From the NCBI GenBank assembly GCA_902780395.1, contig CACZFH010000008.1:1-64000 (forward strand): a stretch of DNA of 64,000 bases. The letters run 5' to 3'. The position numbers were made by a program, and so were the translations under genes. This stretch comes from an uncultured Erysipelotrichaceae bacterium. GTDB taxonomy: Bacteria; Bacillota_I; Bacilli_A; RF39; UBA660. Below the pieces are notes generated by a model. That model was not told where the DNA came from, searched no databases, and saw nothing but the letters and a program-made list of their open reading frames with translations. This document shows positions 41,178 through 47,073 of this stretch, piece by piece; the stretch's first letter is position 1, and each line of letters begins with the position of its first letter.

Positions 41178-41206
41178 TTGCTAAAAAAGTAGAATAATAA
41201 TATACT
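41178..41206 (+). promoter_or_regulatory. Promoter of the structured leader
   Basis: TTGCTA (41178-41183), exactly 17 nt, TATACT (41201-41206). Predicted start near 41212, at the base of the first hairpin. Confidence 0.65.
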
Positions 41207-41211
41207 ATTTA

Positions 41212-41288
41212 TAGGAAGATACGTCTTTTTGGCAGACGAATTCCTTTCGAGTTCATCTGTAGCCTTTACGGCTCAGATGTTTTTTCTA
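41212..41288 (+). ncRNA. Candidate structured leader RNA or small RNA of unknown class
   Basis: GC-richer island in an AT-rich gap. Outer stem AGGAA/TTCCT (41213-41217 with 41241-41245) encloses hairpin CGTCT/AGACG (41222-41226 with 41234-41238). An 8-nt linker leads to a strong terminator hairpin: CATCTG and CAGATG (41254-41259 with 41274-41279) stacked on AGCC/GGCT, followed by TTTTTT. Segment CAGACGAA (41233-41240) could instead pair with TTCG and TCTG (41246-41249, 41256-41259), which would open the terminator: a riboswitch- or attenuator-like design. I do not recognise a known class. The aminopeptidase start is 45 nt beyond. Confidence 0.5.
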
Positions 41289-41332
41289 TTTTAATATATA
41301 TATTTAAAAAAAATTGAAAAGGAGGAAAAGAC

Positions 41333-42565
41333 ATGAATAAATTACAAGAAAAATATGCCAAAGTATTATTAGAAACTTGCTTGAAGATTGACAAAAATCA
41401 ACCACTATTTATCAGTTATAATATCGAAATAAGTGACTTTGTTAGAATTATTACCAAACAAGCTATAGAGATGGGAGTAAAAGACATTTACTTTGAAGGA
41501 TCTGATCCTTATTTAAAACATGAGTTATTAAAAAACTTAGAGGTAGAAGAATTAAAAAAACTATCATTTTGGAACAAAGAGATATGGAATGTATATGCTA
41601 AAAAGAATGCTGCTTTTTTGATGCTAGCAAGTGAGAATCCCGGCTTAATGAAAGATATTGATTCTGATAAAATGACAGCTATGACTAAGTATTCACTAGA
41701 AACAAGAAAAGAATTTGATAATTTACGTGATAAATCTATGCTTGCTTGGTGTATCGCAGCTGTTCCAACCAAAGACTGGGCTAAAACATTATACCCCAAT
41801 AGTGAAACACCAATTGATGATTTATGGAATGCTATTTTTGATATATGTAGTGTCAAAGAAAATGATCCAGTAAAAATATGGAATGAAAAAATTAAAAAAT
41901 TAGATATTAGAGCTAAAAAACTTAATGATTATCAATTTAAAACTTTAAAGTATAAAAGCAGTAATGGTACCGATTTTCAAATAGATTTACCAAAAAATCA
42001 TATATGGGCTTCAGGAAAATCTGTTCTAGCTAATAACAAAGAAGTATTGGTTAATTATCCAACTGAAGAAGTATTTTCCTCTCCTGATTGTCATAGTGCT
42101 GAAGGAATTGTTTACTCATCAAAACCATTATCCTATCAAGGAGTAATAATAGAAGACTTTTGGATTCGCTTCGAAAAAGGAAAAGCAGTGGAGGCTCATG
42201 CCAAGAAAGGAAATGAAACCCTTCAGAATATGATTAATATTTGTGAAAATTCTAACTTATTAGGAGAAGTAGCCTTAGTTCCATATGATTCTCCTATTTC
42301 TAACACGAATCAAATCTTTTTAGAGACATTGTTTGATGAGAATGCTGCCTGTCATCTTGCTTTAGGTGATTCATTCCCAGAATGTATAAAAGATGGGCCT
42401 AAAACATCAAAAGAAGTACTATTTAAAGAACATAATATGAATAAATGTGATTCTCATGTAGATTTTATGGTAGGAACAAAAGACATGAATATCATAGGAA
42501 TTACTGAAGATAAAAAAGAAGTTCCAATCTTTATCGAAGGAAACTTCACTGAAGAATTCAATTAA
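41333..42565 (+). CDS. M29-family aminopeptidase (AmpS/PepS)
   Basis: 410 aa, normal for the thermophilic-aminopeptidase/PepS family. Metal-site and family segments include NYPTEEVFSSPDCHSAEGIV (the NxPxGEvf-type motif), a later HLALGDSFPEC, and HVDFMVGT (aminopeptidase T: SxxHxDfMiG). Cytosolic metallo-exopeptidase removing N-terminal residues. Strong AAAGGAGG before the ATG. The upstream structured leader with terminator suggests control by premature termination. Confidence 0.9.
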   Translation: MNKLQEKYAKVLLETCLKIDKNQPLFISYNIEISDFVRIITKQAIEMGVKDIYFEGSDPYLKHELLKNLEVEELKKLSFWNKEIWNVYAKKNAAFLMLASENPGLMKDIDSDKMTAMTKYSLETRKEFDNLRDKSMLAWCIAAVPTKDWAKTLYPNSETPIDDLWNAIFDICSVKENDPVKIWNEKIKKLDIRAKKLNDYQFKTLKYKSSNGTDFQIDLPKNHIWASGKSVLANNKEVLVNYPTEEVFSSPDCHSAEGIVYSSKPLSYQGVIIEDFWIRFEKGKAVEAHAKKGNETLQNMINICENSNLLGEVALVPYDSPISNTNQIFLETLFDENAACHLALGDSFPECIKDGPKTSKEVLFKEHNMNKCDSHVDFMVGTKDMNIIGITEDKKEVPIFIEGNFTEEFN

Positions 42566-42590
42566 AAAGATCTCAAATGAGATCTTTTAC
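42564..42590. terminator. Bidirectional terminator
   Basis: AAAGATCTCA and TGAGATCTTT arms with flanking A and T tracts, between convergent genes. Confidence 0.8.
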
Positions 42591-44620
42591 TTTGCTAAAG
42601 TAATTGAAACAGTACTACAAGAATCAGTATTACCACCATTAAAGCCACTTAAGAATAATCCTGAACGTTTTCCAGAAGTATCATCTCCTGAAATATTAAC
42701 TTTAATTCCCGGACATTGACTCTTAATTTCAGCCGTTAAAGCATTTGCAACAGCTTGATATCCACCATCAAAATTAGTAGAAATAATACCTTTTATACCT
42801 GTAATAGTACATGGTTTACAACTAGGAGTATCATCATTATTAGTAACAGGATTAGTACTTTCATTATTATTGTTGTTTTTGTTATTATTGCTATTACTAT
42901 TACTATTACTATTATTAGAAGTATTATCATTTCTTGTTTCTTGTTTTTTACCATTACTTAAAGTTACTGTAACAGTAGTTCCACTAGATATTTCACTGCC
43001 TGCTCTAATAGATTGGGATAAAACCACATCTTTATCTTCACTACTATTACGATAGACAAAACTATATTTTAAACCAGCTTTTTCAAGCTTAGAAATAGCT
43101 TCTTTTTTAGCAAGACCAATAACATTAGGAACCGTTTTTTTCATACCATCACTTATAGTAACAGTAATAGTATCGTCATTATGAATAGCATCTCCTGTTT
43201 TATAAGAATAGGAAATAATCTCTCCAGCAGGAACACTATCACTAAATTCATGAACTTCTTCATAAGGAATATTATACTTACCAGCCCATTCAATAAATTC
43301 TTGATAAGATTCTAATTTAGGCATTTTTAAACTTCCTTTAGAAAGAACAATCGTAACAACACTACCTTGTTCTATAATATCACCTTTTGCATAATTAGCT
43401 TTAATAATATGGTTTTCTTTAACTGTATCATCATATTGATCTTCAAAAGTAATTTTAACTTTATTCTTAATAGCCCATTCAGCAATCTTTGTCATTGTAT
43501 AATCTGAAAAATCTGGTATTTTAATTTCTGGCCCCTTACTAATCGTAACAACTACTTCTTCATCATGAATTTTAACCTTTTCACCAGCTTTTATGTTTTG
43601 AGAAATAGCCAATCCTTTTTTTATTTTCTTGTGAAAATCTCTTTCTATTTTATAATTCAATTGATGTTGTTTCATATAAAACTCTACTTCAAATTGACTT
43701 TTTTTAGTAAAATCAATTAAACTAACTTCTTCAAATCCTAATTCTTCTCCATAAGAAAAAGTAAGTTTTAATTCATCATCTCTTTTAAAAGTACCAGTAG
43801 AGCTTTGAGAAATAACAGTATCTTGAGCTTTTTCACTCTCAACAAATTCAACAATGACATTACTTAGATAATTCTTTTTAACAAATTCTATAACAGCATC
43901 TCCATCCCATCCAATCATACTAGGAACCATAATTTCCTTAGATGGATTAGGACCATCACTGATAGAAATAGTAATTTCCTTAACCTCTTTTAACGGAGTA
44001 CCTGAATTAATATCTTGACTAATAACTATATATTCTGGAATCATATCACTATATTCATATTCTTGAGTAACAGATATTTTATTTTTATCAGCCCAATTTA
44101 ATACCTCAGTAATACTTTTACCACTAAAGTTAGGAGTAGCTTTAACACTTACTTTAAAATTAGAAGTAGTATCTTTCATTCCAAGTATAAATACTCCCAA
44201 TAGTAAAATAGAACTAATAAATATTAAAGATTTATTGTTTCTTCTATATGTAATAGCAACCACCGTAAATAGTATTGTAAAAATAGTAATAAATAAGTTT
44301 TGTACTAATGAAATAATAGAAGTATTTTGATTTACTAAATGAAAACCAAAAGATATAAAAGAAGCAATACAAACAAATAATAAAAAGCAATGAACAAAAA
44401 CATGAGAAACTTTCTTTTCCTTCTTTTCTTGACTAATTCCTAAATCTTCATCCATTAATTCTTTTAACTCTTGAGTATCAATAATAGATACAGATGTAGT
44501 ATCTGATTTAAATTCTTTTTCTTCAATCTCTTCTTCTTTTTCCACAACCTTAACAGGTTCTTTCTTAGTAGTTGTATTTTTCTTCTTACTAGTAGAATTC
44601 TTTTTCTTTTTCTCGCTCAT
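42587..44620 (-). CDS. Multi-PASTA membrane protein without a kinase domain
   Basis: 677 aa; start at the ATG 44620 with GGAGGTGT upstream. The N-terminal ~70 residues are Lys/Glu-rich and cytoplasmic; about three membrane spans follow (residues 75-150). The extracellular part holds about six PASTA-type repeats, the clearest being VPNVIGLAKKEAISKLEKAG, each ending in a VTISDG or VTLSNG-type strand. An Asn/Ser-rich linker leads to a C-terminal domain of about 75 residues with two cysteine pairs (CKPC and later C). PASTA repeats usually bind muropeptides on Ser/Thr kinases or PBPs; here there is neither, so it may be a wall sensor or scaffold. Confidence 0.8.
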   Translation of the reverse strand: MSEKKKKNSTSKKKNTTTKKEPVKVVEKEEEIEEKEFKSDTTSVSIIDTQELKELMDEDLGISQEKKEKKVSHVFVHCFLLFVCIASFISFGFHLVNQNTSIISLVQNLFITIFTILFTVVAITYRRNNKSLIFISSILLLGVFILGMKDTTSNFKVSVKATPNFSGKSITEVLNWADKNKISVTQEYEYSDMIPEYIVISQDINSGTPLKEVKEITISISDGPNPSKEIMVPSMIGWDGDAVIEFVKKNYLSNVIVEFVESEKAQDTVISQSSTGTFKRDDELKLTFSYGEELGFEEVSLIDFTKKSQFEVEFYMKQHQLNYKIERDFHKKIKKGLAISQNIKAGEKVKIHDEEVVVTISKGPEIKIPDFSDYTMTKIAEWAIKNKVKITFEDQYDDTVKENHIIKANYAKGDIIEQGSVVTIVLSKGSLKMPKLESYQEFIEWAGKYNIPYEEVHEFSDSVPAGEIISYSYKTGDAIHNDDTITVTISDGMKKTVPNVIGLAKKEAISKLEKAGLKYSFVYRNSSEDKDVVLSQSIRAGSEISSGTTVTVTLSNGKKQETRNDNTSNNSNSNSNSNNNKNNNNNESTNPVTNNDDTPSCKPCTITGIKGIISTNFDGGYQAVANALTAEIKSQCPGIKVNISGDDTSGKRSGLFLSGFNGGNTDSCSTVSITLAK

Positions 44621-44642
44621 ACAACACCTCCATACTATATTA

Positions 44643-44648
44643 ATTATA
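44643..44648 (-). promoter_or_regulatory. -10 box of the PASTA gene
   Basis: TATAAT on the minus strand, 22 nt before the ATG. Confidence 0.45.
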
Positions 44649-44728
44649 TAATAAAGATACAAAAAGAAAAAGAATTACCATCATTGGATTGTAAAGAATT
44701 GTCTATTATAGAAATAAAATAATATCTA

Positions 44729-44737: not shown

Positions 44738-44772
44738 TTTCCTAGATTAATGAATAAGAAATGGAGAATGCT

Positions 44773-47073
44773 ATGGAAAAATTTTGGCAAAGAAATATTA
44801 ATCTATTGTTAGGACTTTTTTTATTGCTAGGTCCTATATTAGATGCTTTAACTGGAATGAATGTTCATTACTTTCATTTTAATGTAACAATTGGTATTAT
44901 GGTTCGCATCTTATTCTTAATAAGCATCATGATAATTGTCTTATTTGTCTTTAAGAAAAAGAAAGTGATTATACCTTATCTTATTATAGGAATATATGGA
45001 TTATTCTATATCATAGGAATGATTCAATTTAAGGGAAAAATTGGAATATTTGAAGAAATACAAGGACTTTTTAAATCATTTTATTATCCAATTCTTTTAA
45101 CTAGTCTCTATGCTATTAAAGAGGAAGTACATATTAGTAAACTAACTTTATTCACAACTTTGTTTTTATATTTAATATTTATATTTGTTCCCTTATTATT
45201 AGGAATAGGTTATAAAACCTATGAAATTACTAAAGCAGGAACTTTAGGTTTTTATAATTCAGCAAATGAAATAGGAGGTATTATTGCTATATTAACTCCT
45301 ATATTATGTATCATTATTCATAGTTCAAAAAAATGGCTTCCTAAAATAGCCTTTCTAATAATGTATTTAGTAGTAATTCTAATGATGGGAACCAAAACTC
45401 CATTATTATCACTAGGAATAACACTATTTGTAAGCTTTATTTATTTCATAATAATAGATATAAAAACAAAAAGGTATAAAAGAATCCTAATTTCATTTTT
45501 AATCGTCATAGTAGGAGTACTAGGAATACTTTCAATTCTTCCTAGAACCAATTTTTATAAGAATATAGAAACTCATCTAGATTATCTAAGAGTAGAAAAA
45601 ATAACCGATATTTTAGAAAAAGAAGAATTAGTTGATCATTTTATTTTTAGTCAAAGATTAACTTTTTTCCATAATAAAGCTCTTCTATATTATAATGCTA
45701 ATAATTATCAAAAATTATTTGGAATAGGCTATACACGTAGAGGAAAATCTATTAAAATGATTGAAATGGATTATTTTGATATCTTCTATAGTCATGGCAT
45801 AATAGGTTTTTTAATTTTCATGATTATAACATTTAGAATTATTTATAAAATATTAGAGCAAGAAGATACTTTATCTTATGAAAGATGCATGCTAGCTGTT
45901 AGTTTATTTTTAATATTAATTACCTCTTTATTAACAGGTCACATTATCATAGCTCCATCAGTAAGTTATATAGTTATAATAATAATATTATCTTTAAATA
46001 AGAAAGATAAAAAAGAATTATTTTTTGCTAGTAACACCCTAGAAATTGGAGGAATAGAAACAGCTCTTGTAAATTTATTAAATAGAATAGATGATTCTAA
46101 ATATAACATTACTCTTGTCTTAGAAGAACAAAAAGGAGCTTTACTAGATCGTTTAAATAAAAACATAATAGTTAAAGAACTAAAAGTAAGTAATAATAAG
46201 AATTTTATCTTAAGAAAAATTATCAATGCCTCAAGAAAACTATGGTTTAAAATTATGAATTATGAAAACTATGATTATAGTTGCTGCTACGCAACTTATA
46301 GCTATAGTAGTAATGTCTTGGCCAAAATAGCCAGTACAAATAATTCAATTTATGTTCATAGTGATTATAAAAAATTATATAAGAATGAAGAAGATTTTAA
46401 AGAATTCTTTGATAGTAGAAAAGTCCAAGATTTTAATAAAATAATATTTGTATCAAATGAATCTAAAAATTCATTTATAAAAAGTTATAAAGATTTACAA
46501 GAAAAATGCCTTGTCATTAATAATTTTGTAGATATTTCAATGATTAAAGAAAAAAGCCAAGAAAAAGTTAAGACAAAAAGACAAAAAGGCAAGACATTAT
46601 TTGTCTTCGTTGGTAGATTAGATGACTCATCAAAAAAATTAAAAAGGGCAATGAATTTAGTAAAGGAATTAAATATTGAATTATGGATTATTGGAGATGG
46701 ACCTGATAGAGCCATGTACGAAGAATACCAAAAAGAATTAAAATTAGAGAAAGATATAACCTTCTTTGGTATGAAGAAAAATCCATATCCATATATGAGG
46801 CAAGCTGATTATATAATCCTTACTTCGGATTATGAAGGCTTCCCAGTAATCTATTTAGAAGCCTTAATCTTAGAAAAACAAATTATCACAACCATACCTA
46901 CTAGTGATGATGAAATAGATATGAAAGATTATGCTTTTATCATATCAAAAGAAAACAATAAAAAAGAAGTAGAGAAAATCATTCGAAGTAAAAATAAAAA
47001 GAAAACTATTAACATGGAAATAGTGTATCAAAATAGAATGAAAAAATTAGAAACTCTATTTAATAATGAATAG
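44773..47073 (+). CDS. O-antigen ligase/polymerase-like membrane protein fused to a GT4 glycosyltransferase
   Basis: 766 aa from the ATG at 44773, GGAG 6 nt upstream (an ATG at 44761 is inside the Shine-Dalgarno region). Residues 1-415 have about ten membrane spans with the O-antigen ligase/Wzy look (periplasmic loop, MGTKTPLLSLGI, YSHGIIGFLIFM). Residues 420-766 form a GT-B, family 4 glycosyltransferase: ASNTLEIGGIETALVNLL, VFVGRLDDSSKKLKR, DGPDRAMYEEY, and the donor-site DYEGFPVIYLEAL (EGFPxxxxE). One chain would thus combine a sugar transfer step with polymerisation or ligation. Opens the cluster; the next gene starts 16 nt later. Confidence 0.85.
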   Translation: MEKFWQRNINLLLGLFLLLGPILDALTGMNVHYFHFNVTIGIMVRILFLISIMIIVLFVFKKKKVIIPYLIIGIYGLFYIIGMIQFKGKIGIFEEIQGLFKSFYYPILLTSLYAIKEEVHISKLTLFTTLFLYLIFIFVPLLLGIGYKTYEITKAGTLGFYNSANEIGGIIAILTPILCIIIHSSKKWLPKIAFLIMYLVVILMMGTKTPLLSLGITLFVSFIYFIIIDIKTKRYKRILISFLIVIVGVLGILSILPRTNFYKNIETHLDYLRVEKITDILEKEELVDHFIFSQRLTFFHNKALLYYNANNYQKLFGIGYTRRGKSIKMIEMDYFDIFYSHGIIGFLIFMIITFRIIYKILEQEDTLSYERCMLAVSLFLILITSLLTGHIIIAPSVSYIVIIIILSLNKKDKKELFFASNTLEIGGIETALVNLLNRIDDSKYNITLVLEEQKGALLDRLNKNIIVKELKVSNNKNFILRKIINASRKLWFKIMNYENYDYSCCYATYSYSSNVLAKIASTNNSIYVHSDYKKLYKNEEDFKEFFDSRKVQDFNKIIFVSNESKNSFIKSYKDLQEKCLVINNFVDISMIKEKSQEKVKTKRQKGKTLFVFVGRLDDSSKKLKRAMNLVKELNIELWIIGDGPDRAMYEEYQKELKLEKDITFFGMKKNPYPYMRQADYIILTSDYEGFPVIYLEALILEKQIITTIPTSDDEIDMKDYAFIISKENNKKEVEKIIRSKNKKKTINMEIVYQNRMKKLETLFNNE

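Follow-up and report, generated by a model that had tools for sequence, protein, structure and literature searches.

A promoter-hairpin-terminator unit ahead of an M29 aminopeptidase gene as the probable orphan antitoxin of a type I toxin-antitoxin module

The unit and its aminopeptidase neighbour

A compact unit of promoter, hairpin and terminator stands ahead of an M29 aminopeptidase gene in the window (the 64,000-nucleotide stretch of DNA analysed here, from an uncultured Erysipelotrichaceae bacterium), and we asked whether it controls that gene or is a free-standing small RNA, both of which the original prediction had offered. From the comparison with related genomes, the unit is very probably an orphan antitoxin, that is, the antisense RNA left over from a type I toxin-antitoxin module after loss of the predicted toxin gene. 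The TTGCTA-17-TATACT promoter, the two hairpins and the T6 tract that had been described were all located at 41178-41285 (Table 1), and the higher GC reported for the unit was confirmed, with a G+C content of 42% against 26-29% in the flanks. Folding of the 79-nt RNA beat 200/200 dinucleotide shuffles (z -3.7); in the predicted folds, the 79-nt stretch slightly prefers a three-way junction to the two hairpins, and the two-hairpin form is the minimum for 41213-41285 (-22.2 kcal/mol). Taken alone, the promoter match of the window unit is at the level of chance, with 28 such sites in 4.5 kb and 28.2 expected; the call is supported by the homologous copies, since their alignment keeps the -10 and -35 boxes at the same place. 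The 5' ends of both RNAs of the module are guesses from the position of the promoters. A genome search found a single copy of the unit in its own genome.

Table 1. Coordinates of the putative antitoxin unit, the predicted toxin remnant and the neighbouring gene in the window
Feature	Position	Strand	Description	Relation to relatives
Putative antitoxin promoter	41178..41206	+	-35 TTGCTA 41178-41183, 17 nt, -10 TATACT 41201-41206	Aligned with the promoters of homologous copies
Predicted antitoxin antisense RNA	41209..41285	+	About 75 nt, its 5' end placed by the -10 box	
Hairpin 1 of the antitoxin RNA	41213..41245	+	AGGAA 41213-41217/TTCCT 41241-41245 enclosing CGTCT 41222-41226/AGACG 41234-41238	Conserved and covarying across the family
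Terminator hairpin	41254..41285	+	Hairpin 41254-41279 with T6 41280-41285	Inner pairs differ on both sides
Toxin gene remnant	41286..41332	-	Stop TAG 41288-41286; preceding codons decayed	Stop and A-run/hairpin junction align
M29 aminopeptidase gene	41333..42565	+	Neighbour, outside the module	Orthologues without the unit

A riboswitch or attenuator sensing an amino acid or a peptide, and controlling the aminopeptidase through competition between hairpin 1 and the terminator, would agree with several features of the locus. The unit lies on the aminopeptidase strand, 48 bp before the start codon (45 bp when counted from the toxin stop remnant), and the competing pairing of the 3' arm of hairpin 1 with the 5' arm of the terminator, already pointed out in the original prediction, is real and family-wide, as 42/44 antitoxins beat shuffled arms (mean -8.0 vs. 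-3.7 kcal/mol). We take this pairing to be a likely consequence of repeats common to hairpin 1, the terminator and the toxin 5'UTR. From the unit terminator to the start region of the aminopeptidase gene (41286-41332), the + strand holds no further promoter-like site; with no promoter of its own found, therefore, the gene may live on read-through from the antitoxin promoter, a dependence that would also suit a leader. However, the unit was found before none of the aminopeptidase orthologues in 8 other species or in the genus genomes with a readable upstream region (L113, which begins inside the gene's contig end, was left out of this comparison), and its homologues stand before unrelated genes, namely deoD, a U32-peptidase gene and pilin-like genes. 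Rfam gave nothing credible for the unit at gathering and relaxed cut-offs, in line with the earlier failure to match it to a known class, so that neither conservation with the orthologues nor a known class marks it as a cis-acting riboswitch or attenuator. Missing covariation and missing conservation ahead of orthologous genes had been named beforehand as evidence against a regulatory leader: both stems do covary across the family, whereas the unit is not conserved upstream of the aminopeptidase orthologues. Because the orthologues lack the unit wherever their upstream region is readable, we do not regard it as an aminopeptidase leader, and control of this gene by a riboswitch or transcription attenuator is very improbable. 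The best Rfam match in the window, PyrR (E 0.25), reaches 24 bits where the cut-off is 54, lacks the fold and was rejected.

In most of the orthologues, the same surface-protein gene comes first and is followed by a terminator and then by a promoter immediately ahead of the aminopeptidase gene, and a few have other neighbours; the window gene carries no recognisable promoter of its own, such as most orthologues have right before the start. The nearest named records with this aminopeptidase are assemblies from gut metagenomes that carry the label Erysipelotrichaceae, Bacilli or Bacillales. Further along the window, 42587-44662 (- strand) encodes a protein of 691 aa that has five PASTA repeats and gave no match to a kinase domain, and a single gene at 44761-47073 combines a membrane part resembling an O-antigen ligase with a glycosyltransferase part.

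Related units and the convergent peptide gene

A DNA search of 147 genomes gave clear copies of the unit in G031 (four), G001 (four), G015 and G034, and a fifth G001 copy was added by searching with the second half of the element; the genus thus holds up to five copies per genome. The aligned copies keep the -10 box, AGGAAGATA, CAGACGAATTCC, CATCTG...CAGATG and the T-tract. The genes that follow them, named from reading their translations, encode secreted proteins with a pilin-like start, a U32-peptidase-like and a deoD-like protein. Several window-type modules (L037, L040, L042, L043 and L044) immediately precede genes whose secreted products have a pilin-like start, and for two of these proteins tested no Pfam family was found. 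Most copies continue into a second half, conserved and about 130 bp long, which at its far end is complementary to the beginning of the unit. The 230-nt element of the relatives was considered as one large riboswitch with a closing stem, an idea that was dropped because the second half, read on the opposite strand, is a short gene made of GAAAGGTGGTG, a start codon and MT(C/Y/I)RE(K/R)SLYFIILLLFSLVFIILFK. This convergent gene has 25 codons, a strong Shine-Dalgarno (SD) sequence and one membrane helix, judged from the hydrophobic run (MTxREKSLYFIILLLF..LFK), and it ends a few bases from the complement of the unit T-tract.

A profile of nine such peptides (E up to 0.001), whose single matches rest on context because it spans only 25 residues, found members in many genomes of the genus and in 68/291 genomes of the family (48/150 genera). 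With a 20-member profile, 110/337 genomes of the order (49/107 genera) gave members, and in samples of the class (16/395) and the phylum (3/295) every profile match fell within the same one family. Among 57 loci with enough flank, which are not independent counts because the units and the loci are related to each other, a hairpin (z < -2) follows right after the stop in 53, and the A-run that corresponds to the antisense T-tract follows the predicted toxin stop in 54. The antisense promoter scored 9.55, against 8.51 in shuffles. The pooled pN/pS was 0.37 over 799 pairs of peptide genes, and the subset nearest to the window had a pN of 0.154 and a pS of 0.440; by these values, the 25-residue peptide is under purifying selection. 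The relatives present two general features of type I systems, namely a small hydrophobic one-helix peptide with its own SD sequence, which is gone in the window, and a predicted antisense RNA that has a promoter and a terminator to itself and is by computation complementary to the toxin mRNA. The free-standing small RNA of the original prediction fits this picture as the probable antisense RNA of such a module, with two covarying stems.

In Pfam, NCBIfam, PHROGs and PADLOC, the peptide family had no match to a toxin model and no credible match of any kind, and Rfam likewise gave no family; weak Pfam matches to SNARE and SMIM43 look like helix composition only and were set aside. Searches with tblastn against phages and plasmids and two viral-contig scans gave no matches to the module, and a search of the open literature for the lineage together with toxin-antitoxin systems found nothing. 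As far as these searches go, this putative toxin-antitoxin family is previously undescribed.

Complete tandem modules, of two or three copies about 320-450 bp apart, were observed at L036 (G031 C18), L103 (G018 C25), G186 C10 and L134/L135 (G255 C6, G057 C15). An element present in multiple copies at unrelated loci, in tandem in G031, G018 and G186, and with palindromic repeats at both ends could also be a non-autonomous mobile repeat of small size, like a MITE or a REP, and its peptide would then be incidental. However, the peptide is under purifying selection by its pN/pS and has a strong SD sequence, the antisense promoter and terminator are conserved, and the hairpins are kept despite sequence change. 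We hold a mere mobile repeat to be highly improbable; mobility and a toxin-antitoxin role are, moreover, compatible with each other.

Predicted toxin loss and pairing of the putative antitoxin RNA

On the minus strand of the window, the toxin stop and the AAAAAACATCTGAG junction remain, from 41288 downward; the rest of the remnant contains an in-frame stop, and the start codon, the SD sequence and the 5'UTR with its 5' repeat are gone. A profile search found no toxin elsewhere in the 96%-complete genome, of which about 4% is missing. The toxin is also gone in G001 C1 (L041) and in G034 (L044). One locus is shared by G015, which carries the whole module there, and G034, in which the toxin half is gone and the promoter, the hairpins and the terminator are the same. 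In addiction modules, the toxin is expected to be lost first if prior loss of the antidote is harmful. Another stage of toxin loss was seen at L130 (G017 C6:85077-85200), where an intact antitoxin lies beside a shortened, decayed toxin reading.

The RNA fold is under selection by sequence comparison, as is the peptide. In the two-hairpin structure, 97% pairing is kept among 11 close antitoxins, and three pairs are changed on both sides; among 17 diverse ones, compensatory changes occur in 13 of the 18 predicted pairs of the 5' hairpin and the terminator, and hairpin 1 is present in the predicted fold of 45/53 antitoxins. A covariance model (R1), whose training set includes the window, gave four matches over 291 family genomes, the window and three others. 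Outside the training set, it matched an antitoxin beside an intact toxin (G214/L132) and the one beside the decayed toxin of G017 (L130); the match at L131 lies inside a coding sequence and is false. The matches are few because the antitoxin sequence changes too fast for the model.

The 5' end of the toxin mRNA pairs with its own 3' end at a median of -32.2 kcal/mol, against -23.1 kcal/mol for non-cognate ends, and in the predicted folds of five toxin mRNAs the two ends of the molecule are joined and most of the SD sequence lies within helices. In computed duplexes, the window RNA reaches -93 to -98 kcal/mol (z -14 to -19) with the 3' regions of the G031 toxin mRNAs. Computed pairing of antitoxins with toxin 5'UTRs across the family is -24.4 kcal/mol, against -18.0 kcal/mol with shuffled antitoxins, but for the window RNA the computed pairing with these 5'UTRs is not significant, which points to action at the 3' end.

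From this architecture, we infer a transcribed module with a toxic peptide. In the intact relatives, the mRNA would encode the 25-aa single-helix membrane peptide, with its 5' and 3' ends predicted to be paired and the SD sequence largely paired. The antitoxin would be transcribed from the opposite strand across the 3' part of the mRNA, bind that part with full complementarity and perhaps also touch the repeat-like 5'UTR, and the duplex would lead to cleavage or to blocked translation. In the window, the convergent toxin gene would have been deleted or have decayed, and the antisense RNA, with its promoter and intrinsic terminator, would have been left behind. Some activity might remain to this orphan; that selection keeps it as an anti-addiction RNA against incoming modules, with its promoter and a leaky terminator now driving the aminopeptidase, seems unlikely.

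The peptide might instead be a regulated small membrane protein and no toxin, with the RNA as its antisense regulator, and such a role would agree with the fact that toxicity is deduced here from sequence and that many chromosomal type I systems are of obscure function (PMC7472228). However, the multi-copy and tandem arrangement, the fact that four genomes (the window, G001 C1, G034 and G017) have lost the peptide and kept the RNA, and the predicted multi-layer silencing of translation would all be typical of toxins, so that a non-toxic peptide appears quite unlikely and a type I toxin with its antitoxin is the reading we prefer.

The genes of type I toxin-antitoxin systems diverge fast and are shorter than routine annotation can handle, and for these reasons whole families go unseen. 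The present module family was found in roughly one in three of the genomes sampled from an order of uncultured gut Bacilli, often in several or tandem copies. To judge from their DNA, the window orphan and the other toxin-free copies would be antidotes that have outlived their predicted toxins. The paired intact and toxin-free loci (G015/G034, and the window) form a natural record of decay, in which the toxin goes first and the antidote is kept, and therefore it becomes directly testable whether antitoxin RNAs that stand alone are relics or shields.

Comparison with known type I systems

The txpA/RatA and bsrG/SR4 systems of Bacillus subtilis resemble the present one in that RatA and SR4 act at the 3' end of the toxin mRNA, as the window RNA would according to the computed duplexes (PMC6562991). 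Their complementarity extends over 100-140 bp, whereas the antitoxin here is about 75 nt long with two hairpins, and BsrG has 38 residues whereas the peptide here has 25 and no Pfam match (PMC6562991). No toxin-family match in Pfam or NCBIfam places the peptide in the TxpA/BsrG family.

With par/fst of pAD1 and the Fst/Ldr family, the module shares short convergent RNAs with a terminator hairpin as their meeting point, a small single-helix peptide and repeats common to both RNAs (PMC7472228). In Fst/Ldr such repeats let the antitoxin pair at the toxin 5'UTR, a pairing for which the computed energies here exceed those of shuffles family-wide and are not significant for the window RNA. The Fst/Ldr signature consists of a tryptophan between the helix and a charged C-terminus and a P/D/S/TXXXG motif in the helix (PMC7472228); the present peptides have neither a post-helix tryptophan nor a PXXXG-type motif, and no Pfam match. 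Unlike in Fst/Ldr, the T-tract is found here on the antitoxin side only, and the charged residues are mostly N-terminal.

The aapA/IsoA systems of Helicobacter likewise have a cis-overlapping antisense RNA, several chromosomal copies and a small membrane peptide, as well as a long-distance 5'-3' pairing of the toxin mRNA, which is predicted here (PMC6733600). They belong to another phylum, and the likeness is one of architecture. What sets the present module apart from aapA/IsoA is that its two outer ends are near-copies of one palindrome.
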